A stretch of DNA of 64,000 nt, from the NCBI GenBank assembly GCA_001898935.1, contig MKVT01000025.1:79300-143299 (forward strand). The letters are read 5' to 3'. The DNA comes from Paludibacter sp. 47-17. GTDB taxonomy: Bacteria; Bacteroidota; Bacteroidia; Bacteroidales; Paludibacteraceae. Shown here in pieces: positions 21,361 to 39,118 of the stretch (position 1 is its first letter; each line of letters begins with the position of its first letter). Position numbers and translations under genes: made by a program. The notes beneath the pieces are model-generated. The model searched no databases and had not been told where the DNA came from. It saw only the letters and a program-made list of their open reading frames with translations.

Positions 21361-24300
21361 ATTTCAATTCCTTCTGGTTCAATTAAAAGTACAGCATTCA
21401 AAGAAGAAAGTATTTTAATCAGTTATTTCAATTCCTTCTGGTTCAATTAAAAGCAATGCAAAACTGGCAGCAGCAGCTCCGGACTTATATTTCAATTCCT
21501 TCTGGTTCAATTAAAAGACCATCCCGACAATCGAACGAATTGAAGTCAGGTATTTCAATTCCTTCTGGTTCAATTAAAAGATTACGATGTAATTGATAAA
21601 CAGTTCAAATCCTTGATTTCAATTCCTTCTGGTTCAATTAAAAGTTTCAGTTTAGTTTTGTCGAGTAGTGAGTAGGAGATTTCAATTCCTTCTGGTTCAA
21701 TTAAAAGTGCTGGCAGAACTGGTAGGGGGCGAAGTAATTAAATTTCAATTCCTTCTGGTTCAATTAAAAGGTAATTCATAGTTGCAACCTTCGAGATAGG
21801 AACGAATTTCAATTCCTTCTGGTTCAATTAAAAGAATTTTCGACATATCATCAAACTGTAGCGAAGAGATATTTCAATTCCTTCTGGTTCAATTAAAAGT
21901 TAATAAAAAGGGCTATGCCATACCAGTTTTGGGAAATTTCAATTCCTTCTGGTTCAATTAAAAGTCTTTTTCAGTCCAATTGTAATCCATTAAAGGTTAT
22001 TTCAATTCCTTCTGGTTCAATTAAAAGTGATATTTTATCAAGTATCCAGCCAAATTTAACTACATTTCAATTCCTTCTGGTTCAATTAAAAGACACCCGA
22101 CATCAGCTTTGATTCAGTGAAGGGCATATTTCAATTCCTTCTGGTTCAATTAAAAGAGCAATCAAAAAAGCAACAGAATAAACCAGCCGAAATTTCAATT
22201 CCTTCTGGTTCAATTAAAAGAAAGACATAAGGAATATTATGAGAATCTATAGATAATTTCAATTCCTTCTGGTTCAATTAAAAGCCTGTTCAGGAAACCA
22301 ACCAATCAGCAGAACAAAATTTCAATTCCTTCTGGTTCAATTAAAAGCGCACAAGGGAATGCTACCAACTCCGACAAGTTCAAATTTCAATTCCTTCTGG
22401 TTCAATTAAAAGTTTTGACACGGAACTCCTTCAAAAAGGTACTATTATTTCAATTCCTTCTGGTTCAATTAAAAGAGGGCAACAGTTTTATCGGGTAGGG
22501 GAGTATCGTACATTTCAATTCCTTCTGGTTCAATTAAAAGTCTGTACCGTATACAGGTGATGCTGTTCTAGTTCATTTCAATTCCTTCTGGTTCAATTAA
22601 AAGCAATGCAAAACTGGCAGCAGCAGCTCCGGACTTATATTTCAATTCCTTCTGGTTCAATTAAAAGATTTTCGGAGCCAAACTTCGCTGGAATGATATT
22701 ATATTTCAATTCCTTCTGGTTCAATTAAAAGAAACAAAACGGGTATCAATACGAAAACATTTAAGAAAATTTCAATTCCTTCTGGTTCAATTAAAAGGTT
22801 TTGATTTTTTTACTCCTGCCATAGCTTTAACTCCATTTCAATTCCTTCTGGTTCAATTAAAAGCGGATTAATTAAAACAACTTGACCAGTCATTCCAGCA
22901 TTTCAATTCCTTCTGGTTCAATTAAAAGAGAAACAAACGATACCAGGAAAAAGAAACATATCCATTTCAATTCCTTCTGGTTCAATTAAAAGTTTCTCAA
23001 GAAGTCTTTTAGACTGTTCTTCTGTTATTTCAATTCCTTCTGGTTCAATTAAAAGACTCTTTTATGTCGCTCGCGTAAGGCGGGATCCATATTTCAATTC
23101 CTTCTGGTTCAATTAAAAGTGACAGCCAAATTTGCAGGCGTGCGAAAAGACGGACATTTCAATTCCTTCTGGTTCAATTAAAAGTTATTATCGCCAGCGC
23201 CAGCTGCTCCTGTGTGAGATCGATTTCAATTCCTTCTGGTTCAATTAAAAGCAGTATCTTCGAGTTGAATATTTTTGTCATCTGTTATTTCAATTCCTTC
23301 TGGTTCAATTAAAAGGAATTTATAGAAAATGAAGACTTTTGTCGTTGGAAATTTCAATTCCTTCTGGTTCAATTAAAAGAGTCAGCCGGGTGTTCCCGAA
23401 GACCCACGCAAGGTCATTTCAATTCCTTCTGGTTCAATTAAAAGAACGCCAAACTCATCTCAGCAGCGCCGGAATTGCATTTCAATTCCTTCTGGTTCAA
23501 TTAAAAGTTAGAATGCAGCAAATCAGGCCGTTGCGCCCAGTTTATTTCAATTCCTTCTGGTTCAATTAAAAGTTTTTTCGCCCAACTGTCAAGGGATAAT
23601 AAACTTATTTCAATTCCTTCTGGTTCAATTAAAAGATTAATGCATTTGTAGGTGGGGCTGAATTTGCTCAGATTTCAATTCCTTCTGGTTCAATTAAAAG
23701 AAAACGCTTCCGGCAGACGAGGACGTCACCTGTTATTTCAATTCCTTCTGGTTCAATTAAAAGCGTTTAAAGCACCGTTTTACGGCCTAAATATACATAT
23801 TTCAATTCCTTCTGGTTCAATTAAAAGTTTATTCTGTCTCGGGTAATCATACGAGCGTTACCGATTTCAATTCCTTCTGGTTCAATTAAAAGAAGCGGGG
23901 TGATGTTATTTATTGCGAAGATAAAAGATTTCAATTCCTTCTGGTTCAATTAAAAGAGAATTTATAGAAAATGAAGACTTTTGTCGTTGGAAATTTCAAT
24001 TCCTTCTGGTTCAATTAAAAGCTGATTTATTAAAAGCTACAAGAGCTTTATTTTTATTTCAATTCCTTCTGGTTCAATTAAAAGTTTACTTTCAAGATGC
24101 TTAATAGTATCAATATCGGCATTTCAATTCCTTCTGGTTCAATTAAAAGAGCACATCATCAACAAACGACGGAAGTTGATTTGAATTTCAATTCCTTCTG
24201 GTTCAATTAAAAGGTTCAACGAAATTGAGTGGGTAGATGGCGTAATTACATTTCAATTCCTTCTGGTTCAATTAAAAGAAAGAGCCGAGCAAAGGCATCG

Positions 24301-26470
24301 CCCCTGCGCTAGACAATTTCAATTCCTTCTGGTTCAATTAAAAGATATTGAAAGAAGAAGGCAGGAAGAATTAAATACACATTTCAATTCCTTCTGGTTC
24401 AATTAAAAGCACCGAAAACCCGAACCACTGTTCAGGATAACGCTATTTCAATTCCTTCTGGTTCAATTAAAAGCTTTTTGATAAACTTAAACAGGCGGCT
24501 GACAAATTTATTTCAATTCCTTCTGGTTCAATTAAAAGACTGAATTCGACGGCGATATCTGCCGTGTAAATTAATTTCAATTCCTTCTGGTTCAATTAAA
24601 AGCAAAAGGCCGGGATGTACTAACATCCGCTGAATCGAATTTCAATTCCTTCTGGTTCAATTAAAAGACTTACCCAATTCCTGAAGGTTGCAGGGCAATT
24701 ACGAATTTCAATTCCTTCTGGTTCAATTAAAAGTTTCGGGTTGTACTTTATTTCTGTTGCGTAATTCCTTATTTCAATTCCTTCTGGTTCAATTAAAAGT
24801 CCTCCAATTGATACATGGGAAAAAGAATTCGAATATTTCAATTCCTTCTGGTTCAATTAAAAGACTTTGATGGAACAAAAGTAATCAGTTCCGTAATGCA
24901 TTTCAATTCCTTCTGGTTCAATTAAAAGTTTTGAACAAATAAACAATTTAAAATCAATGGAAAATTTCAATTCCTTCTGGTTCAATTAAAAGTTTTTCAA
25001 AATCAATATACTGCTTTTTTAAATCGTATTTCAATTCCTTCTGGTTCAATTAAAAGTTATTCAAAATCTTCAGAAAAATCAAACTGCGCTATTTCAATTC
25101 CTTCTGGTTCAATTAAAAGGCCGATTCAGCATCCGCGAAACATGTTTGAACCACATTTCAATTCCTTCTGGTTCAATTAAAAGATAATTTTCCATTTGAA
25201 TACATTTATATCCTTCGAAATTTCAATTCCTTCTGGTTCAATTAAAAGACACCCGATTTTCAATTTGATTACCGGTTTGCGTGATTTCAATTCCTTCTGG
25301 TTCAATTAAAAGCAAGTGTCAACGCTCCCCACCGAAGAGAGAGGGTTATTTCAATTCCTTCTGGTTCAATTAAAAGCGTTTGTAAATAAAGAGGTTGCGG
25401 AATCGAAATTAATTTCAATTCCTTCTGGTTCAATTAAAAGGTAACGGATACATATATTTCAAGTGCCCGGAAGGATATTTCAATTCCTTCTGGTTCAATT
25501 AAAAGTCCGTGCTGCCGTTGAACTGAAAGCTACCGAATTATATTTCAATTCCTTCTGGTTCAATTAAAAGGGAACGATCATCAGGTTTAATCTACTTGAT
25601 GTGTCATTTCAATTCCTTCTGGTTCAATTAAAAGTAATATATCACCGATTGCAAATTATGTATATTGTAATTTCAATTCCTTCTGGTTCAATTAAAAGAA
25701 CATGTGCTGTATTTATTTTATTTACTAATCGCATTTCAATTCCTTCTGGTTCAATTAAAAGAAGGGCTGTTTTGTAATTCCGTCTACTCCCTTTGCTATT
25801 TCAATTCCTTCTGGTTCAATTAAAAGTTATGGAAGATAAAATTTCTGACGATGGACAATCCTATTTCAATTCCTTCTGGTTCAATTAAAAGCCAACAGGA
25901 TTTAGATGAAGAGATGGAAGAAATATAATTTCAATTCCTTCTGGTTCAATTAAAAGTTGCCGGAAAGCGGAATGGTTACAATTTTGCTGTAATTTCAATT
26001 CCTTCTGGTTCAATTAAAAGGCAAGAATCACAAAAGAAATGGAACCGTTTATCAGATTTCAATTCCTTCTGGTTCAATTAAAAGTCAACAGTCCATTTCT
26101 CAGCATTCGTATTTCCTCTATTTCAATTCCTTCTGGTTCAATTAAAAGCTAATTGGGTGAAAGCTTGCGAAGCTGTAAAGTCATTTCAATTCCTTCTGGT
26201 TCAATTAAAAGATTCACCCTGGAACAAATCAGGGAGGCGGTTCGGTCATTTCAATTCCTTCTGGTTCAATTAAAAGGGTGTAGGCGGTAAAATTACGATT
26301 GGTACATTTTATATTTCAATTCCTTCTGGTTCAATTAAAAGCTATCAGGAAAGCGGAATGACACAAATGCTATTTAATTTCAATTCCTTCTGGTTCAATT
26401 AAAAGTACTTACTGGGAGCATAATATCGGCGCAGGCAATTCATTTCAATTCCTTCTGGTTCAATTAAAAG
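21361..26470 (-). CRISPR. Type I-B CRISPR array, 80 repeats and 79 spacers
   Basis: I count 80 copies of a 29-bp repeat, all identical as far as read, spaced by 34-36 bp spacers (unit about 64-65 bp). On the plus strand the repeat begins ATTTCAATTCC and ends CAATTAAAAG. On the minus strand it begins CTTTTAATTG and ends GGAATTGAAAT, which gives the usual type I-B 5' handle ATTGAAAN. The array is therefore read on the minus strand, as are the cas genes. The leader is on the right (26471-26681) with a promoter at 26560-26567, so newest spacers are at the high-coordinate end. The leftmost repeat (21361-21389) shows no decay. Repeated or related spacers are listed among the findings. Confidence 0.97.
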
Positions 26471-26681: not shown

Positions 26682-26945
26682 TCATAAAAAATTATCGATG
26701 TTACTGCGCTCTTTACCAACAATTTGTTTGTCCAGCCATTTTTCGGTGCGACCGGAAAAAATTATCAGACTGTCTTCATCTTTTTCCATAAACTTTTCAG
26801 CATTTATCACTAATTCTTTCAGTTTTACTTCACTTATTTCTCCTTCAAATACGGAATTTTGAATCCAATTCAAGTATTTCCTGCACAGCCGTAACATTTT
26901 TCCTACGCGCTTTTCTCCACAATCGTATACCAATATCACGTACAT
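26682..26945 (-). CDS. cas2: CRISPR adaptation protein Cas2
   Basis: An 87-residue ferredoxin-fold protein opening MYVILVYDCGEKRVGKMLRL, with the Cas2 Asp near residue 8. It forms the core of the Cas1-Cas2 integrase that inserts new spacers at the leader end. It is one base after cas1 and is the last gene before the leader and array, all on the minus strand. Length is normal. Confidence 0.95.
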   Translation of the reverse strand: MYVILVYDCGEKRVGKMLRLCRKYLNWIQNSVFEGEISEVKLKELVINAEKFMEKDEDSLIIFSGRTEKWLDKQIVGKERSNIDNFL

Positions 26946-26946
26946 C

Positions 26947-27963
26947 TTACCACCACATTTTAAATGGTTTATACTCTTCCATATTAAGCAGGTGCTTGCT
27001 TAATTTGTAGCATTCCAACTTCATCAGATGCCTGTAACTTACTTTACGTTTCAGCGACCGGTGCTGGATAGTTTCGTTCAACCGCTCTTCAAACGATTGT
27101 ACAAATATCTTTTTTCCTTGCTGATTGAGCAAACATTTGTTTAGTTTTTTATCAAAATGTTTTTCCTGTATTTCTTTTTTGTTCAATACTTTGAATATCA
27201 CCCTGTCTACCAATATAGGTTTGAATATCTCGGAAATATCAAGTGCCAGCGAATATCTTCTTTCTCCGGGTGTATGCAGATAGCTGATGGTAGGATTTAG
27301 CTGGGTCTGATGAATTGCTCTCAGACATTGACTGTAACACATCATGTTACCAAAGGAAATCAGTGCGTTAACTTCGTTCCGGGGAGGTTGTTTTGTACGA
27401 TTGCCCATTTCGAAGTCGGTAATAATCAGGCCGAAACCTTCGTAGTATTTTTGCCGGATATTGCCTTCGATTCCCATCAGTTCATCAACCTGACGTGCAT
27501 TCCCGATAGATGAGGTGTAATTTTCAATTTGCATGATCAATTCTGCCAGCTCCTTGCCCCGCTTGTCGTAATACCTTAGATTCTTGATCATATTGTATGC
27601 TGCTCCTTCGATGAGCTTTTTGGCAATGATGATCCGCTTCTTTTTATCCTGATGAAAAGCCGTTTGGGCTAATAACATCCGACCTGATAGCAATCCATCT
27701 CTGGGCATAAAAGAACCGGTATAATTTTCATAATAATCGAAGAAGTGTACGGCAATTCCGTTTTGTCCCAGAAAATTGTAAATTGCGCTATTTGCCGTGA
27801 GCGACCCGAATGCATAGAATTCGGCGATGTCTTCGACAGGTAAATACCGATGTTGACCGTTGCGTTCACACCCATTTCCGTCGTCTTCAATAGGGGTGAA
27901 TTTCAGGGTGTTGTCCTTGCGTTGCAGGGTGCCGGGATTGAATAGATAATACGTTTTTTTCAT
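26947..27963 (-). CDS. cas1: CRISPR integrase Cas1 (type I-B)
   Basis: A 338-residue Cas1 with the expected metal ligands: Glu in MGIEGNIRQKYY, His in ISYLHTPGERRYS and Glu in LALDISEIFKP. It catalyses spacer integration with Cas2. The N-terminus KKTYYLFNPGTLQRKDNTL is of the Cas1b kind found with type I-B systems. It lies 18 bp after cas4 and 1 bp before cas2, so the three form an adaptation module. Its base composition is less AT-rich than the effector genes. Confidence 0.96.
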   Translation of the reverse strand: MKKTYYLFNPGTLQRKDNTLKFTPIEDDGNGCERNGQHRYLPVEDIAEFYAFGSLTANSAIYNFLGQNGIAVHFFDYYENYTGSFMPRDGLLSGRMLLAQTAFHQDKKKRIIIAKKLIEGAAYNMIKNLRYYDKRGKELAELIMQIENYTSSIGNARQVDELMGIEGNIRQKYYEGFGLIITDFEMGNRTKQPPRNEVNALISFGNMMCYSQCLRAIHQTQLNPTISYLHTPGERRYSLALDISEIFKPILVDRVIFKVLNKKEIQEKHFDKKLNKCLLNQQGKKIFVQSFEERLNETIQHRSLKRKVSYRHLMKLECYKLSKHLLNMEEYKPFKMWW

Positions 27964-27981: not shown

Positions 27982-28485
27982 TTAATCAACTTCATTGATA
28001 TAGCAAAATTCGTAATAGCTGCAATTAGTACAGAGTTTCTTATTAATTGCCGGTGGACAATTATCGGATGCAACAATCTTATTGATCGCCAATTCTGATT
28101 GTTCAATATAATTGATGTCGTTTTGAGCCAACGTAATCTGGGTTGTATGTCGTAGGGCCGGATACTCTAAAATACCCGTAACTCCTTCAATTCCTTGTTT
28201 GATAAGTACATAAATATAGTATTTCAGTTGCCATTCGTGTGCCAATTCTATTTTATCCGACTTTTTAATTTCATGTATAACTTTGTTTCGGGTATCGTAA
28301 AAATCAATCTTGATACCTTCAATTTCCAGTTCTTCATACCGTTCCGAACGCTGTGGATAGCTTGATTCATGAATCAGTTTGCCTTCGTACACCAGATCGG
28401 AAGTGTGTTCCATATTGATACCATTTGAAAATAGCCAGAGTTTCCGGTGGCAGATTTGGAAGTAGTTGAATTGTGTGCCGGTCAT
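27982..28485 (-). CDS. cas4: CRISPR-associated exonuclease Cas4
   Basis: A 167-residue RecB-like nuclease (DUF83). One iron-sulfur cysteine is near residue 12 (FQICHRK) and three are in the C-terminal CTNCSYYEFC. The nuclease core shows IDFYDTRNKVIHEIKKSDK, with Asp and Glu-x-Lys. Cas4 trims prespacers and helps choose the PAM and orientation. Position and spacing match an adaptation module cas4-cas1-cas2. A 185-bp gap separates it from cas3. Confidence 0.94.
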   Translation of the reverse strand: MTGTQFNYFQICHRKLWLFSNGINMEHTSDLVYEGKLIHESSYPQRSERYEELEIEGIKIDFYDTRNKVIHEIKKSDKIELAHEWQLKYYIYVLIKQGIEGVTGILEYPALRHTTQITLAQNDINYIEQSELAINKIVASDNCPPAINKKLCTNCSYYEFCYINEVD

Positions 28486-28670: not shown

Positions 28671-30977
28671 TTATAAAATTAAACTATCATTTTTTGTAAA
28701 ATCCTCTTCCTGTATTTGCAGGCCTAAATCGTTCGTATATTTTCGTTTGATTAAAAAATAGGATGTTTGTATGATTTTATCTTCATTTTTTGCTTCAAAT
28801 AGATGAACTTTTCTTTCTATTACTCCTGAATTTATAAAACAGGCAAAACGCTTTTTAGATATCTGAACTTTTAAAGATTCAGCTTTCACAAATTCATATT
28901 GATTGAGAAATGATTTAAATTCCATCTCATTAGCAGCGGGTAATACTTTAATCCCATCAAATTTGGAATAAAAATCTTCTTCTGACTTCTGAGAATATAC
29001 AAAAGGAGATAATTGATTTTTAATCATATCAGTTAGGACATCATATACAAAATCATATTCTTCTTTATCTTTCAGGTCCCAATCAGGATAAACAAAATCA
29101 ATGGCTCTTTGAAGGTCCTTCTCCAGAACTCTTTCACAGAACCAACTGAGGGCTTCCAAACTCCGGTCAATTATACCTTGATTAGTATAAATATAGGAAG
29201 AATCTACTTTATTCCGATTTTTAAATACGTTACATACACAAATACCTTTTTCTCTTTTTCTGTTTACACGTCCGAATCTTTGAATTAATGCATCAATAGG
29301 AGCAGGTTCAGTGTAAATCACATCATAATCAATATCCAAACTAACTTCGATAGCCTGAGTTCCGACAAGTAATTGAACATCATTTCCTTTCAAGTCTCTT
29401 TCTTTTTTATTCCTATCAGAAGCATTAAAACTACCATGAAGCAATACTTTGTTATTTGATGACAGCTCATTGTATACTATTTGCGATTGTTCTACAGTAT
29501 TACAAACAACCAATACTTTTTTCCCATTATTCAAATCTACCTGAATCAAATCTAAATTATGCGCTAATAATCCTTCATGTAGCACAATACGATGACGGGT
29601 AAATTTTTCATACAATTCGTTTTTTGCTGAAATTTCCGAATGAGCGCCAATAGCTTTTTCTAATTCTTGTTTCAAAAACCGGGGTAATGTCGCTGTCATT
29701 ATGAAAATTTTAACCCGAAAAAATTTCACAGCAAACTCAATCAACACTACGATTTGAGCAAAAATATCCGGCCGATAAGCATGTATTTCATCGAAAATAA
29801 AATAACCACCAACCCATTCAAACATTCCTTTCTCAAAGCCTTTCAGTCCGAAGATATTTTTGAGTAATTGAAATGGAGTAACGATTTTGATTGGCGTTAC
29901 AATTGTTCTGTAATTTTCTTTTATTTTGTGTGTTAAGTATTGTCTCTTTTCTTGTGAAAAGGTAGGATGTTCCTTTTCAACAAGACTCTCTAAATATTCC
30001 GTGAGTTTCCCATGAAGTAATCCCACTTTATTTTTGTTGCCAATGTCATTTCCAAGTCGTTCGTACATAGCATTGATGGAAGCTGTGAAAGGTAGGATAT
30101 AAAATACACGCCCCTGACCATTTAGTTGCATTTGTTTTTGTAGCCATAAAAAGGCAGCTTCTGTTTTGCCAGAACCTGTTGGAGCTGTAAGTATTACATT
30201 TCCTTCTTTTGTTGAAGCGTCTAGTTGGTGGGGATAAAAGTCATAACCTTTATTTTGTAGTGTTAGTCTTTTCGAAATGAGAAACTTAAAATCTTGACTT
30301 TCTAGTAATTCAATTTTTGAAATGAAGGCAGAAGACAAATGATCGCACTGTTTAAATCCTCCAGCCATTAAAAGTAAATCGAAATAGTTTGACTGTTCTA
30401 ACTTTACTGGATTTCTTATGTATTCCAATATAAACTTGCGAGGTAAATCTGAACTAATTTCGTTAAGTGTTATGCCAAACTCTTTCAGCAGATTCTTAAC
30501 GAAATCGGAATTTATATTTTGTTTAAACTCAGTTTCGAATGAAAGTTTTGACTCATTGTCAAACTCAAGCAGATAGCCATTACTGTTATCTTGCTTATAT
30601 AAATGTTCAATATGACTAAATAAAACATCATAGCTTTTATGGTGTCCGGCAACTACTTGTTTTATCATCTTTTTGTCGAGATCGGAATTTTCTAATCCGT
30701 CGATAAATGGAATTGAATATAATTCATGTCGTTGCCTTAACCATTTATGCTGTTTACTACGTAACATGCGTTGAAAGTCCGAATGTGCTTTTCCTAAGTC
30801 GTGGCAAACAATACACAGATAAAGCAAATCCCAAAAATGTTCAAGATCTGCTACTGGTAAGTTTGGAAAGCCTTTTTTTAGGTTTTCCAATACTTTTAAT
30901 CCATCTTCTATATGTCGTTTTAAAGTAACCTGAGGTTCTGATTTTGCCAGAACCTCAGATAAATTTATACTAATCAT
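28671..30977 (-). CDS. cas3: CRISPR helicase-nuclease Cas3
   Basis: A 768-residue protein from the ATG at 30977, chosen because it overlaps the cas5 end by only 8 bp; an upstream codon at 31043 would overlap far more. The HD nuclease domain is N-terminal (His near residue 22, HDLGKAHSDF at 59-68). The helicase follows with Walker A APTGSGKT (265-272), DEIH (396-399) and QRFGRVNRK near residue 565. Cas3 is recruited by Cascade and shreds the target strand. All key residues seem intact. The gene is strongly AT-rich. Confidence 0.95.
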   Translation of the reverse strand: MISINLSEVLAKSEPQVTLKRHIEDGLKVLENLKKGFPNLPVADLEHFWDLLYLCIVCHDLGKAHSDFQRMLRSKQHKWLRQRHELYSIPFIDGLENSDLDKKMIKQVVAGHHKSYDVLFSHIEHLYKQDNSNGYLLEFDNESKLSFETEFKQNINSDFVKNLLKEFGITLNEISSDLPRKFILEYIRNPVKLEQSNYFDLLLMAGGFKQCDHLSSAFISKIELLESQDFKFLISKRLTLQNKGYDFYPHQLDASTKEGNVILTAPTGSGKTEAAFLWLQKQMQLNGQGRVFYILPFTASINAMYERLGNDIGNKNKVGLLHGKLTEYLESLVEKEHPTFSQEKRQYLTHKIKENYRTIVTPIKIVTPFQLLKNIFGLKGFEKGMFEWVGGYFIFDEIHAYRPDIFAQIVVLIEFAVKFFRVKIFIMTATLPRFLKQELEKAIGAHSEISAKNELYEKFTRHRIVLHEGLLAHNLDLIQVDLNNGKKVLVVCNTVEQSQIVYNELSSNNKVLLHGSFNASDRNKKERDLKGNDVQLLVGTQAIEVSLDIDYDVIYTEPAPIDALIQRFGRVNRKREKGICVCNVFKNRNKVDSSYIYTNQGIIDRSLEALSWFCERVLEKDLQRAIDFVYPDWDLKDKEEYDFVYDVLTDMIKNQLSPFVYSQKSEEDFYSKFDGIKVLPAANEMEFKSFLNQYEFVKAESLKVQISKKRFACFINSGVIERKVHLFEAKNEDKIIQTSYFLIKRKYTNDLGLQIQEEDFTKNDSLIL

Positions 30978-31653
30978 AATATGAACTAAAATCAAGTTCG
31001 TGAAAATAGATATGAACCTCTTTCCCGTCCTTGGGATAATCAATGTATGCAGTAAGATTCGTTTGTCCGTCAGCAGAATTACAACTTACGACCGAGTAGG
31101 CTTCCGTTCCCAAATTATAACGGGGAATAGTAGCTGAAAAGTATTTTGGTAAAGGCTGAATAACTCCAGGAAGAAAATTCCCAATCAATGGAATTATCTG
31201 TCCTTTTATTTTTTCAGCATTATGTATTTCTTTCAAATCTACTTCCTCAATACTATTTACAGTTGCTAAATCATTGGAACGACCTAATAGTAAAGGATAA
31301 ACAGGCAAACGAAAGTAATCTACCAATTCATTATTCTGTAAATAGAGAATCAAATGATTATTAAACATAAATTCTCTGTGTATTACGTTCGATTTTGTCG
31401 TATTCTTTGGATAACCTCTATCATGTGCTTCTATTTGATAAATGGTTTCTAAGTCTGTTTGTTTGGCTTCAAATTCAAAGTAATAACCAATTTTTAATTT
31501 GTCATACTTTATATATTTTCCTGCTGCTGCATTAATTAGCCCCAAAACTGTACTAATAGGTGGCACTTCGAGTGTTGGTTGAAAGCCCGATATAATATTG
31601 GGATATTTAAAGCTCGAAGTCCACGCAGTTATGTCAATTTTGAAAACTTTCAT
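30970..31653 (-). CDS. cas5: Cascade subunit Cas5 (type I-B)
   Basis: A 227-residue RAMP protein. The N-terminal segment MKVFKIDITAWTSSFKYPN and the LEVPPISTVLGLINAAAGKY block fit Cas5t/Cas5b. It caps the 5' handle of the crRNA in Cascade. One base separates it from cas7 and it overlaps cas3 by 8 bp, so translation is probably coupled. AT-rich like its neighbours. Confidence 0.93.
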   Translation of the reverse strand: MKVFKIDITAWTSSFKYPNIISGFQPTLEVPPISTVLGLINAAAGKYIKYDKLKIGYYFEFEAKQTDLETIYQIEAHDRGYPKNTTKSNVIHREFMFNNHLILYLQNNELVDYFRLPVYPLLLGRSNDLATVNSIEEVDLKEIHNAEKIKGQIIPLIGNFLPGVIQPLPKYFSATIPRYNLGTEAYSVVSCNSADGQTNLTAYIDYPKDGKEVHIYFHELDFSSYYD

Positions 31654-31654
31654 A

Positions 31655-32719
31655 CTATAATTGGATTTTCAATTGTTCTGTATACTGGTCAATAGCTTCA
31701 TTTATAGAAAGAACTTTTACATTCGAAAACGTGGTTTCTAAAGCTTTTAAACTATTTGCTTTTTCATCTAAGAATCCGCTTCTGCGGCCTATAAAAACAG
31801 TTCCTTCAATATTATTGCGATAATCAGACAATATTTCTGTCAAGGCGTCAATATTTAAGTCTACTATATCGTTATCTTTTCCGCTTGCTGATGCAATGTG
31901 AGAGAATGGGTGATTTCCACTGTTTAAAGTTGCAAGAATTATAAATTTTGGAGTCACATCGCCCATATTATTTGTCTGCATGGCTCCACCTGATATGAAT
32001 TTTAAACTTTGAATTGTTTCTACTATTCTTTTTTGACGTACACTATTTTCTAATCGAACTAACTTGTAAGGATTTCCCTTTTCATCCTTCAAAAAGTTAT
32101 CATCTACTTCTCTCGCGCCATTTTCTAAAGCTTCTTTCTTTAATGCGTCAGTCAGATTCTTAAATCCCGTTTTATTATAAGTAGCAAATGTTCCAGCTTG
32201 TTCTAAATCAAGACTGAACATTCCTTTCATTATAGCACTATATTCTTGTTTTCCGTAAGGAACTGAATCACCATCCTGACGAGCCATGCTCGACCAATTT
32301 TCAACCGGACGAACCGATCCTACCGAAACCAGAACCGAGTTTTTCAATGGTGATATGCGAGTTACAGTAACATTTTCTTTTTTTACTTTTCCTTTATCAT
32401 CGGTTACTTCTTCTGTTGCAGCCTTCATATATCCGAAAATGTCATCATCGGCATATTTAATTGGGTTTGCTGCCGTAAATGCAATTTTTGAATCTCGTGT
32501 AATTGGTGACAACTCCCAATTAAAGGTTTTTTGTAGGGTATCACGCCACCAATAACGCCACGCTTGTCCCGATACATAAACATAGCTTTTACCTTCTTTA
32601 TAAATACGTTTTGTCCCTACTGCGTTATCAAAGTTGCTTTGTGTGTTTTTTCCTGCATTGTTCAATGCAACAACATCCACGTCAATAAGGATAAATCCTT
32701 GTGATTTTAAGTTACTCAT
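31655..32719 (-). CDS. cas7: Cascade backbone Cas7, Cst2/DevR family
   Basis: A 354-residue Cas7 of the Cst2/DevR family. The opening QGFILIDVDVVALNNAGK and the SGQAWRYWWRDTL segment are typical. Several copies form the backbone along the crRNA spacer; their thumbs flip out every sixth base of the guide. This property matters for the mismatch pattern of the guide RNA at 34521. It lies 23 bp after cas8. Confidence 0.93.
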   Translation of the reverse strand: MSNLKSQGFILIDVDVVALNNAGKNTQSNFDNAVGTKRIYKEGKSYVYVSGQAWRYWWRDTLQKTFNWELSPITRDSKIAFTAANPIKYADDDIFGYMKAATEEVTDDKGKVKKENVTVTRISPLKNSVLVSVGSVRPVENWSSMARQDGDSVPYGKQEYSAIMKGMFSLDLEQAGTFATYNKTGFKNLTDALKKEALENGAREVDDNFLKDEKGNPYKLVRLENSVRQKRIVETIQSLKFISGGAMQTNNMGDVTPKFIILATLNSGNHPFSHIASASGKDNDIVDLNIDALTEILSDYRNNIEGTVFIGRRSGFLDEKANSLKALETTFSNVKVLSINEAIDQYTEQLKIQL

Positions 32720-32742: not shown

Positions 32743-34353
32743 TTAATTTTCGTTTAAGTCAGTTTCTTCAGTTTCAATACTTGATAATTCAGCCTCGACA
32801 TGAATGTTTTTGGCATGTAGCTCTTGGTAAATCGCAAAAAGTAAAATGTCACGAATGTCTTTCCAGAAAACATCATCCGGGAAAAGATAATAAACCAACT
32901 CTTCCATAGTAATAATGGTTTCTTTTGCACCATCTTTATAGTTCTTTGCAACTACATTTTTCAAAAAGAAGCGTCGCAATTCATACGCACTTTTGTACCC
33001 ATCCAAAGCTTTAATACTTTTCTTTATAGCTTCTTCATCTGTATTGGTAAGGAAAAGAGCTAATTCTTTGATTTTGTTTAATGTTTCGTGTTTCATATTT
33101 TGAACGTTTATTAGATATTTTTCAATAATTGCAAAATTGAATTTATGAGTGACACCCCAATTGACAAATAATCTTAAAAGAGATTTGCCATTAAGTAGGT
33201 TTTCCAATATGATATTTCGCCACAGTTTATAATCGTCAAATGTAATCTGATGTGTTTCGTCTTTTTTTGTTATTTCATAGCTTGAAGTCATCGCATTATA
33301 TTTAGCACCTTTATGTTTAGAATTCTTGTAATGAGATAACAAAAAAGGTTGCCAATCAGCTTTCAATGTCGCAACTTGACAAGTTGAATAAAACCTGAAT
33401 ATTGATGAAGGAAGTTTATAAATAACTATTTCGGGACTTGCCCCGAAATTTGTAAAATGATATAAACCTAACGAAACACCTCTGTATTCGTCAGTCGCTT
33501 CTTTGATTTTATTGATAAGGAGATCATCTACAAACTGAAATAATGCGTTTGCAGGAATGCCATATTCTGATTTCAAAACACCTTCTGAAGAAGATGTTGC
33601 TAAATTTGCCAAGTTTGCTTCGCAATTCCTTTTGACGAAAAAATCATTTACTTCTGCTGAATTGCTTTGAATGATAGCAATTCGTCCTCCAATAAAGATT
33701 GAACCAAAAGGAATAAAAAACATCCGGATTATCATTTCTTTAGAAAGCATCATCCCGAACTGAAAATTATGATGGAAATTGACAAAAGTTCCTGAACCGG
33801 ACATTAATGAATTGTCTCGACCTGCTTTAAATAGTTTTGTCTTTCGTCCCGTTATCCGGCAATATCCTTCTTCGCAGGTTGTCGTTTCATTTATAAGAGA
33901 ATTGAAATACTTTATAGTTTCTTTAATTTTCACATCTCCTTTATAAGCCGGTTGTGTAATTGCAGAGTTAAGAAAGAAAGGGTTTATCTTTCCTTCCCAT
34001 TTATTGACATATATTTTTGCTATGTAGTCAATTAATTCCAAAATTTCCTTTTCCGGATGTTTTCCCATAAGATATTTAATCACATATCCGCCTACGTCAG
34101 CAAATGGATCTCCAGTTAGTCGTGTTAGCCAATCATAATCAATGGTTGTAATTTCTTTCATGTTGTTATTTTTATTAATTTCTTCAATAAATACACTTGC
34201 ATAAACACACCAGCCTTCGCAATAATCAAAATCCAAAATATCTTGATCTGAATATCCTTGATTTTTCAAATCATTCACTTTCCATTTTATATTGAAGATT
34301 GTATCTTCATCTGAAAATATATGTCCATCTTCAATTCTCATTAATGTCTCCAT
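32743..34353 (-). CDS. cas8: Cascade large subunit Cas8, Cst1 (CXXC-CXXC) family
   Basis: A 536-residue large subunit of the type I-B Tneap kind. The central block CEEGYCRITGRKTKLF followed by SLMSGSGTFVNFHHNFQFG and FFIPFGSIFIGGRIAIIQS aligns with the Cst1 zinc-finger region. In most Cst1 proteins this block has two CXXC pairs; here the first is CxxxxC and the second (expected near LCxxC) reads MLSKEMIIR without cysteine. Cas8 recognises the PAM in Cascade. The start at 34353 is about 20 bp after the expected transcription start. Confidence 0.88.
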   Translation of the reverse strand: METLMRIEDGHIFSDEDTIFNIKWKVNDLKNQGYSDQDILDFDYCEGWCVYASVFIEEINKNNNMKEITTIDYDWLTRLTGDPFADVGGYVIKYLMGKHPEKEILELIDYIAKIYVNKWEGKINPFFLNSAITQPAYKGDVKIKETIKYFNSLINETTTCEEGYCRITGRKTKLFKAGRDNSLMSGSGTFVNFHHNFQFGMMLSKEMIIRMFFIPFGSIFIGGRIAIIQSNSAEVNDFFVKRNCEANLANLATSSSEGVLKSEYGIPANALFQFVDDLLINKIKEATDEYRGVSLGLYHFTNFGASPEIVIYKLPSSIFRFYSTCQVATLKADWQPFLLSHYKNSKHKGAKYNAMTSSYEITKKDETHQITFDDYKLWRNIILENLLNGKSLLRLFVNWGVTHKFNFAIIEKYLINVQNMKHETLNKIKELALFLTNTDEEAIKKSIKALDGYKSAYELRRFFLKNVVAKNYKDGAKETIITMEELVYYLFPDDVFWKDIRDILLFAIYQELHAKNIHVEAELSSIETEETDLNEN

Positions 34354-34380
34354 TTGTGTCGATTAATAATATTATCAGCA

Positions 34381-34411
34381 CAAATATAGATATTTTATTT
34401 ATAAAAACAAT
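34381..34411 (-). promoter_or_regulatory. Promoter of the cas8-cas7-cas5-cas3 operon
   Basis: On the minus strand ATTG (complement of 34408-34411) is 19 bp from a perfect -7 box TATATTTG (complement of 34381-34388). Transcription would start near 34374, giving a leader of about 20 nt before the cas8 ATG at 34353. Confidence 0.75.
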
Positions 34412-34449
34412 CCTATGAATAAAAAACAATTAAAATTGAATATGTTTTT
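34412..34449 (+). promoter_or_regulatory. Putative Cascade target site between divergent promoters
   Basis: The sequence from 34415, ATGAATAAAAAACAATTAA, matches the first 19 nt of the spacer-like segment of the guide RNA (from 34521) at every position except 6 and 12. Positions 22-24 match again after mismatches at 20 and 21. It is preceded by CCT (34412-34414), a plausible type I-B PAM. The site lies between the -33 element of the cas8 promoter (34408-34411) and that of the guide promoter (34451-34454), so a bound Cascade would cover both. Confidence 0.65.
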
Positions 34450-34450
34450 T

Positions 34451-34481
34451 ATTGTGTTTTATAGAATTTGATTTATCTTTG
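34451..34481 (+). promoter_or_regulatory. Promoter of the crRNA-like RNA
   Basis: ATTG (34451-34454) is 19 bp from a perfect -7 box TATCTTTG (34474-34481). Transcription would start near 34488, a few bases before the degenerate repeat. The layout is the same as in the divergent cas8 promoter. Confidence 0.75.
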
Positions 34482-34490
34482 CATCATATA

Positions 34491-34520
34491 TGTAATCGAA
34501 CCAGTGATTGGAATTGAAAG
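34491..34520 (+). repeat. Degenerate CRISPR repeat in the guide RNA gene
   Basis: Reads TGTAATC, GAACCAG, TGATT, GGAATTGAAAG in order. The array repeat on its transcribed strand has TTTAATT, GAACCAG, AA, GGAATTGAAAT. So the blocks TAAT, GAACCAG and GGAATTGAAA are kept, the middle is three bases longer and the last base differs. It points opposite to the array. Confidence 0.75.
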
Positions 34521-34550
34521 ATGAAAAAAAATCAATTAATTTTGTGATTT

Positions 34551-34588
34551 GATCCCCTCTTCAGTTTTTTGGAGAGGGGATTTTTCTC
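34551..34588 (+). terminator. Intrinsic terminator of the guide RNA
   Basis: ATCCCCTCTTC (34552-34562) pairs with GGAGAGGGGAT (34571-34581) with one wobble and an 8-nt loop. T5 follows (34581-34585). The T run is on the plus-strand side, so it ends the plus-strand transcript. Confidence 0.85.
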
Positions 34589-34673
34589 AAAACCTGATTT
34601 TGATTTTTTAACAAAACCTCATATTCTCTTATATGTTAATTATGTTTCTTTCTTATTCTTAAAAAATCCTGTC

Positions 34674-35444
34674 TCATCCCTCCCCCACGCACCCAAACCC
34701 CATGCTTCCTTTCTCACCCAATCCGCTGTTCCACATCACTTTCAGCAACTCATCATCAGCTTTCAGCTTAAACCGAAATGTATAGCCCCGGATTTTAGTC
34801 TGGTAGGGCGTGCCGGTTTTGATGCTCACTAATTTCGAGATGGGTTTCGAAAGCAGTTTCAGTTCGAAAGTGTCGGAGCCTGTATAGTCGTGTCCGTGGT
34901 ATGCGGCGTATTTGTTTTTCAGGTTGCGGAGCATGGCTTCACGGGCGTAAGGACTGTCGGGCGATTCGTAAAAGATCTGGTTTGTTTCGGGTATGTGCCG
35001 GGCAATGCAAACGGGCGAAAGGGTGGTGAAGACCGTGTCGGTGGTAAAAACGGGTTCGGCCATCAGTTCGATACCGGTAACGCGGAATTGCACCTTCGAT
35101 TGGCGGTCGCCAAGGGTGAAAACCTGCTCGGAGAAGAGCCCGCGGATGAATTCTTCGGTCGATCGCCCGGGCAGGAAAGCAATTTGCCACTCCACAGTGG
35201 GCGATTCGATCATCAGCCGGTCACCGGCGATGTTGTACTTCGGAACATGGAGATGTGAGAACGTGAACAGGCGAAACTGCTTGTTATCGGCAATAAATCC
35301 GTTCTGGTGCAACCAGGTGGAATATTGGGCGTCCGAACGATGAATGGCAGCATAAACAAAGGACGATAGTTCGTACTGGTAATTAATGGGTAATGTGTTG
35401 CCGAAAATGGAGGTGTCTGGCACTAATTGTAACGAAAATCTCAT
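34674..35444 (-). CDS. cas6: CRISPR RNA endonuclease Cas6
   Basis: A 256-residue RAMP protein ending in the glycine-rich loop GLGEKGSMGFG (about 241-251), typical of Cas6. It cuts repeat RNA eight bases before the spacer, leaving the ATTGAAAN handle. Its base composition is close to the chromosome, unlike the AT-rich cas8-cas3 block. It is separated from cas8 by the 320-bp guide-RNA region. A weak promoter (TAATATTG, complement of 35479-35486) lies upstream. It should process both the array transcript and the degenerate repeat of the guide RNA. Confidence 0.92.
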   Translation of the reverse strand: MRFSLQLVPDTSIFGNTLPINYQYELSSFVYAAIHRSDAQYSTWLHQNGFIADNKQFRLFTFSHLHVPKYNIAGDRLMIESPTVEWQIAFLPGRSTEEFIRGLFSEQVFTLGDRQSKVQFRVTGIELMAEPVFTTDTVFTTLSPVCIARHIPETNQIFYESPDSPYAREAMLRNLKNKYAAYHGHDYTGSDTFELKLLSKPISKLVSIKTGTPYQTKIRGYTFRFKLKADDELLKVMWNSGLGEKGSMGFGCVGEG

Positions 35445-37705: not shown

Positions 37706-37964
37706 CTAATTGTTTAATTTGCTTTTTAGTTGAGAGTTGATAAATTGGTTATCAAGCATATTGAAAAATGCTTTAGATGGAAAGAGTTCTGTCGTTTTAG
37801 TCTGATTTTGCTTTTCAGCCAAAAAAGGAAGCTGTTCCAATACAATTCCTCCCGCCACATTCTACTTTTGTCTGAAACAGTTGTTTCAGTTTATCTTCAC
37901 TGTCGAATGGAAGGTAGTAACGAACCGACGACAGAAGTGAACTTGTGTCGATTACCACTGTCAT
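37706..37964 (-). pseudogene. DUF4411 PIN-like protein, broken
   Basis: On the minus strand an ATG at 37964 overlaps the stop of the ImmA/IrrE gene (ATGA). It reads MTVVIDTSSLLSSVRYYLPF and LKQLFQTK, the DUF4411 N-terminus, then runs out of frame. A second frame reads GIVLEQLPFLAEKQN, QTKTTELFPSKAFFNMLDNQ and stops at 37706-37708; these match later DUF4411 blocks as I recall them. About 30-40 residues between the blocks are missing and the C-terminal half is gone. DUF4411 genes commonly pair with ImmA/IrrE-type proteases as a toxin-antitoxin-like unit, so this toxin partner seems dead. Confidence 0.7.
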
Positions 37965-39118
37965 TGAAGATATTTTGGAAGCTTATCGGGTTGGATATTC
38001 AGGGTTTTGCAAAAGTCATATTCGGTGATCACTCCTTCATAAAAAGCAGTTTGCAGTGTTGAGATAAGCAAAGGAGATTTTAAGGGCTGCGCTGCCCGTG
38101 CGTTACTTTTAATGCCGGCCAGCTTATTCAACTCTCGTTGTTTTCTTTGTTCTGCTTCCCGTACATGGAACTGTTCTTCAAAATCCTTTTTGATGTTCTG
38201 ATAGCTAATGTATGATATTTTTCCGTTCAATAGCAAGCGGGTATACAAGGCCAGACGACTTAGATGTGTCTTTTTCGAAACTCCGGCGATCACTTCCATG
38301 TGGTAATCGTTGGATGCACTGGCTACGCCGAGTTGATTAATGGAATCGGCATATTTTCCAGCCAGAAAATAAAAAGCAAAATCGTTGCACCAGTTTTCAA
38401 TTTTATTGTGGCTCCTGCCATACATGTCGGCAAAATCGATACTCTCAACTTCTTCTTCATTCAGCAGATAATGTCCCAGTTCGTGCGCCAGCGTAAAGAT
38501 TTCCCTGCGGAGCGCTGTTTGTTGCCGTTTTAGTACAATAACATTCGGTGTCAGAAAGAATCCGTCAATATTTGCCTTGTCTTTTTTGTTCCAGGTCTCA
38601 ACAAACTCCGACACCAGTATATTGGCCGAACCAAGTTGATCGATAAACGATTTAAGAAAGTCGCGTTTTTCGGTTTTAAAATCGGGGTAAAGCGCAGTTC
38701 TCACTATATCTGCCACATGCTGCGGATGCTGAGTGATACTGAAAACAGGAACCAGACGCGCTAATTTCACATCAGACAGCTTAGCTATAGCCGCGAAATT
38801 ATTTTTAAAGTCTTCAAAGTGGGTTACAATCTTTTTTGAACCCAGATTCAGTTCGGAATTAAACTTCTCTTTGCGAAAAAAGATACTCGATTCAGTGGTC
38901 TTCTGTGGAGTTCGGGGGTCTAAGTAAAAATTGATTCCTTTTTTAAAAACCACATCTATCTTCTTCAATAAGCTGACTTTTATCTCTTCCTGTTCTATGT
39001 CTTCACGCACATACGGCTTCTGCCGGCCTTCGTTCAGCAAAGCCAGCAACTCATCCACCGACATTTTGTACATGTCAAGCAAATAGTAAAGTCGTGATAT
39101 GTTGTATTCTACAATCAA
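37961..39118 (-). CDS. ImmA/IrrE-family metallopeptidase
   Basis: A 385-residue protein. The N-terminus MIVEYNISRLYYLLDMYKMS may be a divergent helix-turn-helix. The middle has the zinc-peptidase motif HELGHYLLNEEE (about 234-245) with a likely third ligand in the following IENWCNDFAFYFL helix. Such proteins often carry an XRE-like N-terminus and act as antitoxin or as regulators that cleave repressors. The downstream partner gene (DUF4411) is broken. Base use is chromosome-like. Confidence 0.85.
   Translation of the reverse strand: MIVEYNISRLYYLLDMYKMSVDELLALLNEGRQKPYVREDIEQEEIKVSLLKKIDVVFKKGINFYLDPRTPQKTTESSIFFRKEKFNSELNLGSKKIVTHFEDFKNNFAAIAKLSDVKLARLVPVFSITQHPQHVADIVRTALYPDFKTEKRDFLKSFIDQLGSANILVSEFVETWNKKDKANIDGFFLTPNVIVLKRQQTALRREIFTLAHELGHYLLNEEEVESIDFADMYGRSHNKIENWCNDFAFYFLAGKYADSINQLGVASASNDYHMEVIAGVSKKTHLSRLALYTRLLLNGKISYISYQNIKKDFEEQFHVREAEQRKQRELNKLAGIKSNARAAQPLKSPLLISTLQTAFYEGVITEYDFCKTLNIQPDKLPKYLQ

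Follow-up and report, generated by a model that had tools for sequence, protein, structure and literature searches.

The element at 34491-34585 is very probably a CreR, a crRNA-like RNA by which type I-B Cascade likely represses the cas operon that encodes it, and probably the RNA's own gene as well. From the presence of this element, and from guides and targets that differ jointly in five relatives, we predict that the complex curbs its own production. The original prediction was of a Cascade feedback loop on the cas promoter, and this stands as the best supported reading, since the guide matches its own promoter in all six loci that carry the element. Throughout, the window is the whole stretch of DNA that was analysed, 64,000 nucleotides of Paludibacter sp. 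47-17.

The cas locus and the crRNA-like element

The window holds a type I-B operon on the minus strand, in the order cas8b, cas7, cas5, cas3, cas4, cas1, cas2, followed by the array; cas6 lies on the opposite side of the intergenic stretch, with its guide RNA, from cas8b. The features are these.

21361-26470, minus strand: CRISPR array, 80 repeats and 79 spacers of 34-38 nt
26682-26945, minus strand: cas2
26947-27963, minus strand: cas1b
27982-28485, minus strand: cas4
28671-31043, minus strand: cas3
30970-31653, minus strand: cas5b
31655-32719, minus strand: cas7 (Cst2/DevR, type I-B)
32743-34353, minus strand: cas8b (PADLOC Cas8b, 3.6e-22)
34381-34388, minus strand: TATATTTG, putative -7 element of the cas8 promoter
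34408-34410, minus strand: TTG, putative -33 element of the cas8 promoter
34412-34414, plus strand: CCT, PAM-like triplet 5' of the target
34415-34433, plus strand: target site (protospacer-like), 19 nt, mismatched at 6 and 12
34452-34454, plus strand: TTG, putative -33 element of the guide-RNA promoter
34474-34481, plus strand: TATCTTTG, putative -7 element of the guide-RNA promoter
34491-34520, plus strand: psi-repeat, a single altered CRISPR repeat
34521-34551, plus strand: guide (spacer-like)
34551-34585, plus strand: 14-bp hairpin, then a T run
34674-35444, minus strand: cas6

The name cas8b rests on PADLOC; the product matched no NCBIfam or Pfam family. By eye, one spacer of the array is present twice, at about 23314 and 23964. 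A DUF805b RNA motif (Rfam RF02914; 21132-21166, minus strand) lies directly past the array end, and the spr1629 family repressor/antitoxin model matched, below its cut-off, a protein near the cas locus (37961-39118, minus strand).

An altered repeat with a spacer, outside the 80-repeat array and adjoining the cas genes, is a trait of CreR, and it is found here. Compared with the window's own array repeat, CTTTTAATTGAACCAGAAGGAATTGAAAT, the psi-repeat has a 3-nt insertion and several changes, so that cutting by Cas6 is not assured. Its 3' end is the 8-nt handle ATTGAAAG (34513-34520). In the predicted fold the guide is unpaired as far as the hairpin (fold z -5.06 for 34545-34592), which is likely an intrinsic terminator; a simple terminator scan of 34300-34700 listed none.

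Where would this RNA begin? The conserved ATCG of the psi-repeat comes 13 nt after TATCTTTG, and a TTG stands 19 nt before TATCTTTG. The predicted RNA start therefore falls almost at the psi-repeat. On both sides the window's motifs have 19-nt spacers between TTG and the -7 element, and we take them to fit the promoter consensus of the Bacteroidota type. The target site is located between the two divergent TTG elements; its placement directly between two -33 elements, as first proposed, is thus borne out by the motif positions of these putative promoters.

The guide and its match beside cas8

Does the guide recognize anything close by? Direct comparison of 34521-34539 with 34415-34433 gave 17 identical positions of 19, the differing positions being 6 and 12 only, exactly as had been claimed. 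Pairing fails at positions 20 and 21, again as claimed, and 22-24 match once more; CCT does precede the site. Type I Cascade leaves every sixth base unpaired.

Could such a match arise by chance in AT-rich DNA? The region 34354-34496 is 17% GC, and we made 5000 dinucleotide shuffles of it, scanning both strands. A 17/19 match was reached in one of the 5000, on either strand, and a seed run of 19 (multiples of six ignored) in none, the longest shuffled run being 13. For positions 1-17 less 6 and 12, none of 2000 shuffles equalled the window match, with or without a CC-starting PAM. Chance, which the original prediction had named as a possible refutation, is itself refuted by these shuffles.

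Elsewhere in the 64-kb window the best other guide matches are 16/19, at two places. In the organism's own 4.18-Mb genome, a 19-mer search allowing at most two mismatches returned four places: the guide, the site and two others. One of these others is numerically closer to the guide, at 18/19, and the match count alone is therefore not unique. Both mismatch at seed position 10, and they are preceded by AAG and TAA, not CC; among the close genome matches, a PAM with an unbroken seed is unique to the site at 34415. Given the 18/19 place, the case rests on PAM, seed and place and not on the count alone. We conclude that the guide-site match is real and not a product of chance.

Guides and targets in relatives

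Cas8b searches covered 300 family, 393 order, 395 class, 395 phylum and 48 genus genomes, these samples overlapping, together with one scan of a GTDB collection. Strong Cas8b relatives (E at or below about 1e-129) numbered 18 genomes, and six of these have the element directly upstream of cas8: the window, L010/L078, L003/L079, L011, L005/L080 and L012/L081. L010 is a Paludibacter MAG, a genus-mate of the window genome, on the same contig as G144. The six share one layout of psi-repeat, guide and site, with the site on the same strand and 83-108 nt upstream. ATCGnACC...GGAATTGAAA is retained in the psi-repeats, which seem to vary less between species than the array repeats do (L079, L078).

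The element was not found in the stretches examined of the other 12 strong relatives, some of them cut by contig ends (the upstream stretch is only 566-1015 nt in L045, L006 and L049), and it is therefore not a general part of these cas loci. Searches of class and phylum gave no further strong relative. Among the weaker Cas8 matches outside the 18 (G629, G461, G558, G114, G718, G1128, G1286, G1301, G1186, G1111 and G1073), those with a detectable cas8 had no psi-repeat. The genus search found cas8 in three of 48 genomes, one of which (G105) is without the element. A psi-repeat pattern search of the whole order matched 53 of 393 genomes, mostly ordinary arrays among the matches listed; 30 loci from it served only as controls and for isolated repeats. 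In this control, 11 isolated repeat-like hits away from this cas8 had no seed run of at least 11 in their stretches, which at 1.5-3 kb are shorter than some test loci. A separate observation concerns L071 (G639, Bacteroidales), where a two-repeat, one-spacer unit stands between cas3 and cas4, around 14744 (reverse complement); no convincing target was found for it.

How do guide and site behave across the six loci? Behind CCA or CCT, every guide finds a match in the promoter of its own cas8. At positions 13-17 the L011 guide has AGTTG, and so does its site, where the others have CAATT or CAATC; the L010 site has AAATT, a mismatch at 13. The guides of L005 (AGATTnGGTAT) and L012 (AGTTAATTAGATT) are unlike the rest, and each fits its own site. 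Covariation, which had been proposed as a check, is thus seen both as a joint difference at 13-17 and as unrelated, fitting pairs; loss of pairing in relatives that keep the RNA, which would have told against the prediction, is not seen in any of the six.

Pairs were scored over positions 1-19 without 6, 12 and 18 (16 positions), and the own pairs of the six loci scored 16, 15, 15, 16, 13 and 15 of 16. The own site was the best of six for four guides and tied best for two, L010 and L003, where the tie is with the window's site. In permutation and shuffle tests, which ignore shared ancestry (the sequences of L005 and L012 are independent of those of the other four loci), the true pairing ranks first of 720 permutations and, for the four alike guides at positions 13-17, 19 and 20, first of 24. 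In single-locus tests no more than 6 of 2000 shuffles came up to the match of any locus, and none did once a CC-starting PAM was demanded.

Over positions 1-18, mismatches fill 12 of 18 cells at 6, 12 and 18 as against 4 of 90 elsewhere, the loci not being independent, and the mismatch at 6 is common to four loci by descent. Seed pairing at 1-5 and 7-11, a trait of CreR, is found in the window and in four of the five relatives. The exception is L012/L081, which has a mismatch at 7, its positions 6, 12 and 18 being paired. In the CreA mutation series positions 6 and 12 are free and the other ten of the first twelve matter, according to the accessible part of that report (PMC8501985); on this series the mismatch at 7 in L012/L081 would be expected to do harm.

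The PAM was deduced from the six loci and the literature, not from the system's own spacers. The PAM-like triplets are CCT, CCA, CCA, CCT, CCA and CCA. In the portions of the sources available, known I-B PAMs include CCA, CCN and CCT (PMC8482600), the I-B system of C. difficile uses YCN and takes new spacers from CCN (PMC8406132), and the I-B protospacers of Bacteroides fragilis have G at downstream positions 2-3 (PMC9367070), which we read as CCN on the other strand. Toward a PAM from the window's spacers, eight spacer pieces were compared with viral contigs, with no hits for any of them. Against phages the window array gave weak hits only (six records), and the L079 array a weak hit (two records, the same phage twice); nothing was hit by the arrays of L078 and L080. 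A comparison of the intergenic DNA with plasmids yielded weak AT-rich hits only.

The promoter motifs recur as well. TAnnTTTG motifs flank the site on both sides in all six loci, where mononucleotide shuffling leads one to expect about 0.04 and 0.03 per locus. With a spacing of 17-22 nt, a TTG is found on the cas8 side in four of six loci (absent from L079 and L011) and on the RNA side in four (absent from L079 and L081). The PAM and the cas8-side TTG overlap in L080 and L081. From this geometry of TTG, PAM and site, Cascade bound there would cover the start of both promoters.

Might the element be nothing but a functionless remnant of a mini-array, its likeness to the promoter due to common descent or to AT-rich chance? 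It has a single repeat, the array repeat has diverged, and ATGAAAAAA-like strings are common in a region of such low GC content. The shuffle tests, the joint differences at 13-17 in L011, the unrelated yet fitting guides of L005 and L012 and the PAM kept in six of six loci argue against this, and we regard a remnant as extremely improbable.

A proposed self-limiting loop, its alternatives and known systems

How might the CreR act? Transcription would start from the -33/-7 motifs just upstream of the psi-repeat, Cas6 would cut the short transcript 8 nt before the guide, and the cut RNA would be loaded into Cascade. The complex would then bind 34412-34451 via about 19 nt, covering the space between the divergent -33 elements, and would in this way block cas8 and probably the RNA's own promoter; that Cascade blocks both divergent promoters we infer from position only. 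Because pairing ends after about 19 nt, Cas3 would not be expected to attack the chromosome. Spacers no longer than 24 bp let Haloarcula hispanica Cascade repress without interference, by the accessible text of the report (PMC10989794). Repression would ease, and more Cas protein be made, when array crRNAs fill Cascade or when an anti-CRISPR disables it; relief of CreR by crRNA competition or anti-CRISPRs is reported, in what could be seen of the source (PMC12737573).

Genomes in which CRISPR activity is a readout of free Cascade would be recognizable by the element, which could also help predict anti-CRISPR action in this group. The sequences are evidence that, in Bacteroidales, both the guide of a cas-regulating RNA and its target change, with their match maintained. 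The natural compensatory pairs (window, L011, L005) suit a direct test of type I-B Cascade self-regulation.

Could the guide repress a small toxic RNA (CreT), instead of or besides the cas genes, as in a CreTA-like addiction module? The parts are those of Haloarcula hispanica creA, psi-repeat, guide and terminator between cas6 and cas8 (PMC8501985, in the portion available), and by eye the region has short ATG-to-stop frames, one of them starting at the guide in the four alike loci. However, the stretch from site to psi-repeat is about 60 nt in the window and carries the RNA's own promoter motifs, the cas8 side of the site is the cas8 promoter with no separate creT-like gene seen, and in L005 and L012 the guide-site match persists without the short frame in the guide. 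Inspection of 34354-34496 and of the five relatives met no creT toxin RNA gene, mini-ORFs being possible. We hold an addiction module of this type to be very unlikely.

What role might be played by the small ORF at the head of the operon? The first ~65 codons of the window's cas8b (34159-34353, minus strand) correspond to a separate small ORF in relatives, here fused in frame. In L010/L078 and L011 an ORF of 62-71 aa lies between cas8 and the promoter predicted to be repressed, and matches the fused cas8 ORF of the window over its N-terminal part at 54% and 52%. Three of the six loci, these two and (in fused form) the window, have a conserved small ORF first in the operon. Its dN/dS of about 0.24-0.31 (three pairwise comparisons, dS above 1) indicates that it is coding. 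ORFs of 70-71 aa in L012/L081 and 48 aa in L003/L079 stand in the same place, their relation being a candidate one. The small ORFs matched no Pfam family above cut-off and no known toxin family, and thus no KilA-N domain as reported for CreP; a word-limited protein search for homologues returned only one, itself.

On a CrePA-like or merged reading, this small protein, first in the repressed operon, would act when Cascade fails, in addition to the release of cas. The conserved ORF with its dN/dS, and the candidate ORFs at the same place, speak for it. Against it, L005/L080 has no ORF there, the window's ORF is fused in frame to cas8, and the protein toxin typical of CrePA, usually KilA-N, is not seen among these small ORFs by Pfam at cut-off, the sole homologue being the query. 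We judge this reading quite improbable. Slightly less so, though still unlikely, is the specific merged module in which one Cascade-guided RNA in a divergent promoter acts as repressor of itself, of the entire cas operon and of a fast-evolving small protein encoded at the operon's head. Were it true, an anti-CRISPR or the loss of Cascade would release more Cas protein plus a previously unknown small effector.

How does the CreR proposed here, with the cas promoter as its target, compare with known systems, as far as the accessible parts of the papers describe them? Autorepression of Cas9 by a natural guide (Workman et al., cited in PMC13131331) is alike in that an effector represses its own genes via a special guide; it differs in being type II, with Cas9 and a tracrRNA-derived guide, where here the effector would be type I-B Cascade. 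CrePA (PMC12737573) shares, in some loci, the Cascade-guided repression of a promoter that leads to a small protein, but here no KilA-N toxin was found and the same promoter drives the cas genes. With CreA of CreTA (Haloarcula hispanica, H. hubeiense; PMC8501985, PMC9458426) the element has in common the psi-repeat, the PAM and pairing at 1-5 and 7-11; the one-repeat form of CreA is ended by a terminator, as the window's element likely is, and the two-repeat form resembles L012/L081. In contrast to CreA, the target here is the cas8 promoter rather than the creT promoter, and pairing is longer, to 15-21.

The closest likeness is to CreR itself (Liu et al. 2023, Cell Host Microbe), described in types I-B, I-E and V-A with partial complementarity to the promoter (PMC13131331, PMC12948488, PMC12737573). 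Since CreRs are reported in I-B, I-E and V-A (PMC13131331), the principle of self-control is already known. Our literature search met no CreR of the Bacteroidota, which does not show such cases to be unreported. Common to both are a crRNA-like RNA outside the array and a partial match to the cas promoter. CreR needs no toxin; the present loci showed no known toxin family, with a conserved small ORF at the head of the operon in three of them. The differences are that the present element belongs to Bacteroidales, that its site lies between divergent -33/-7 promoters so that the RNA would repress itself too, and that PAM and TTG overlap at the cas8 promoter in two of its loci.
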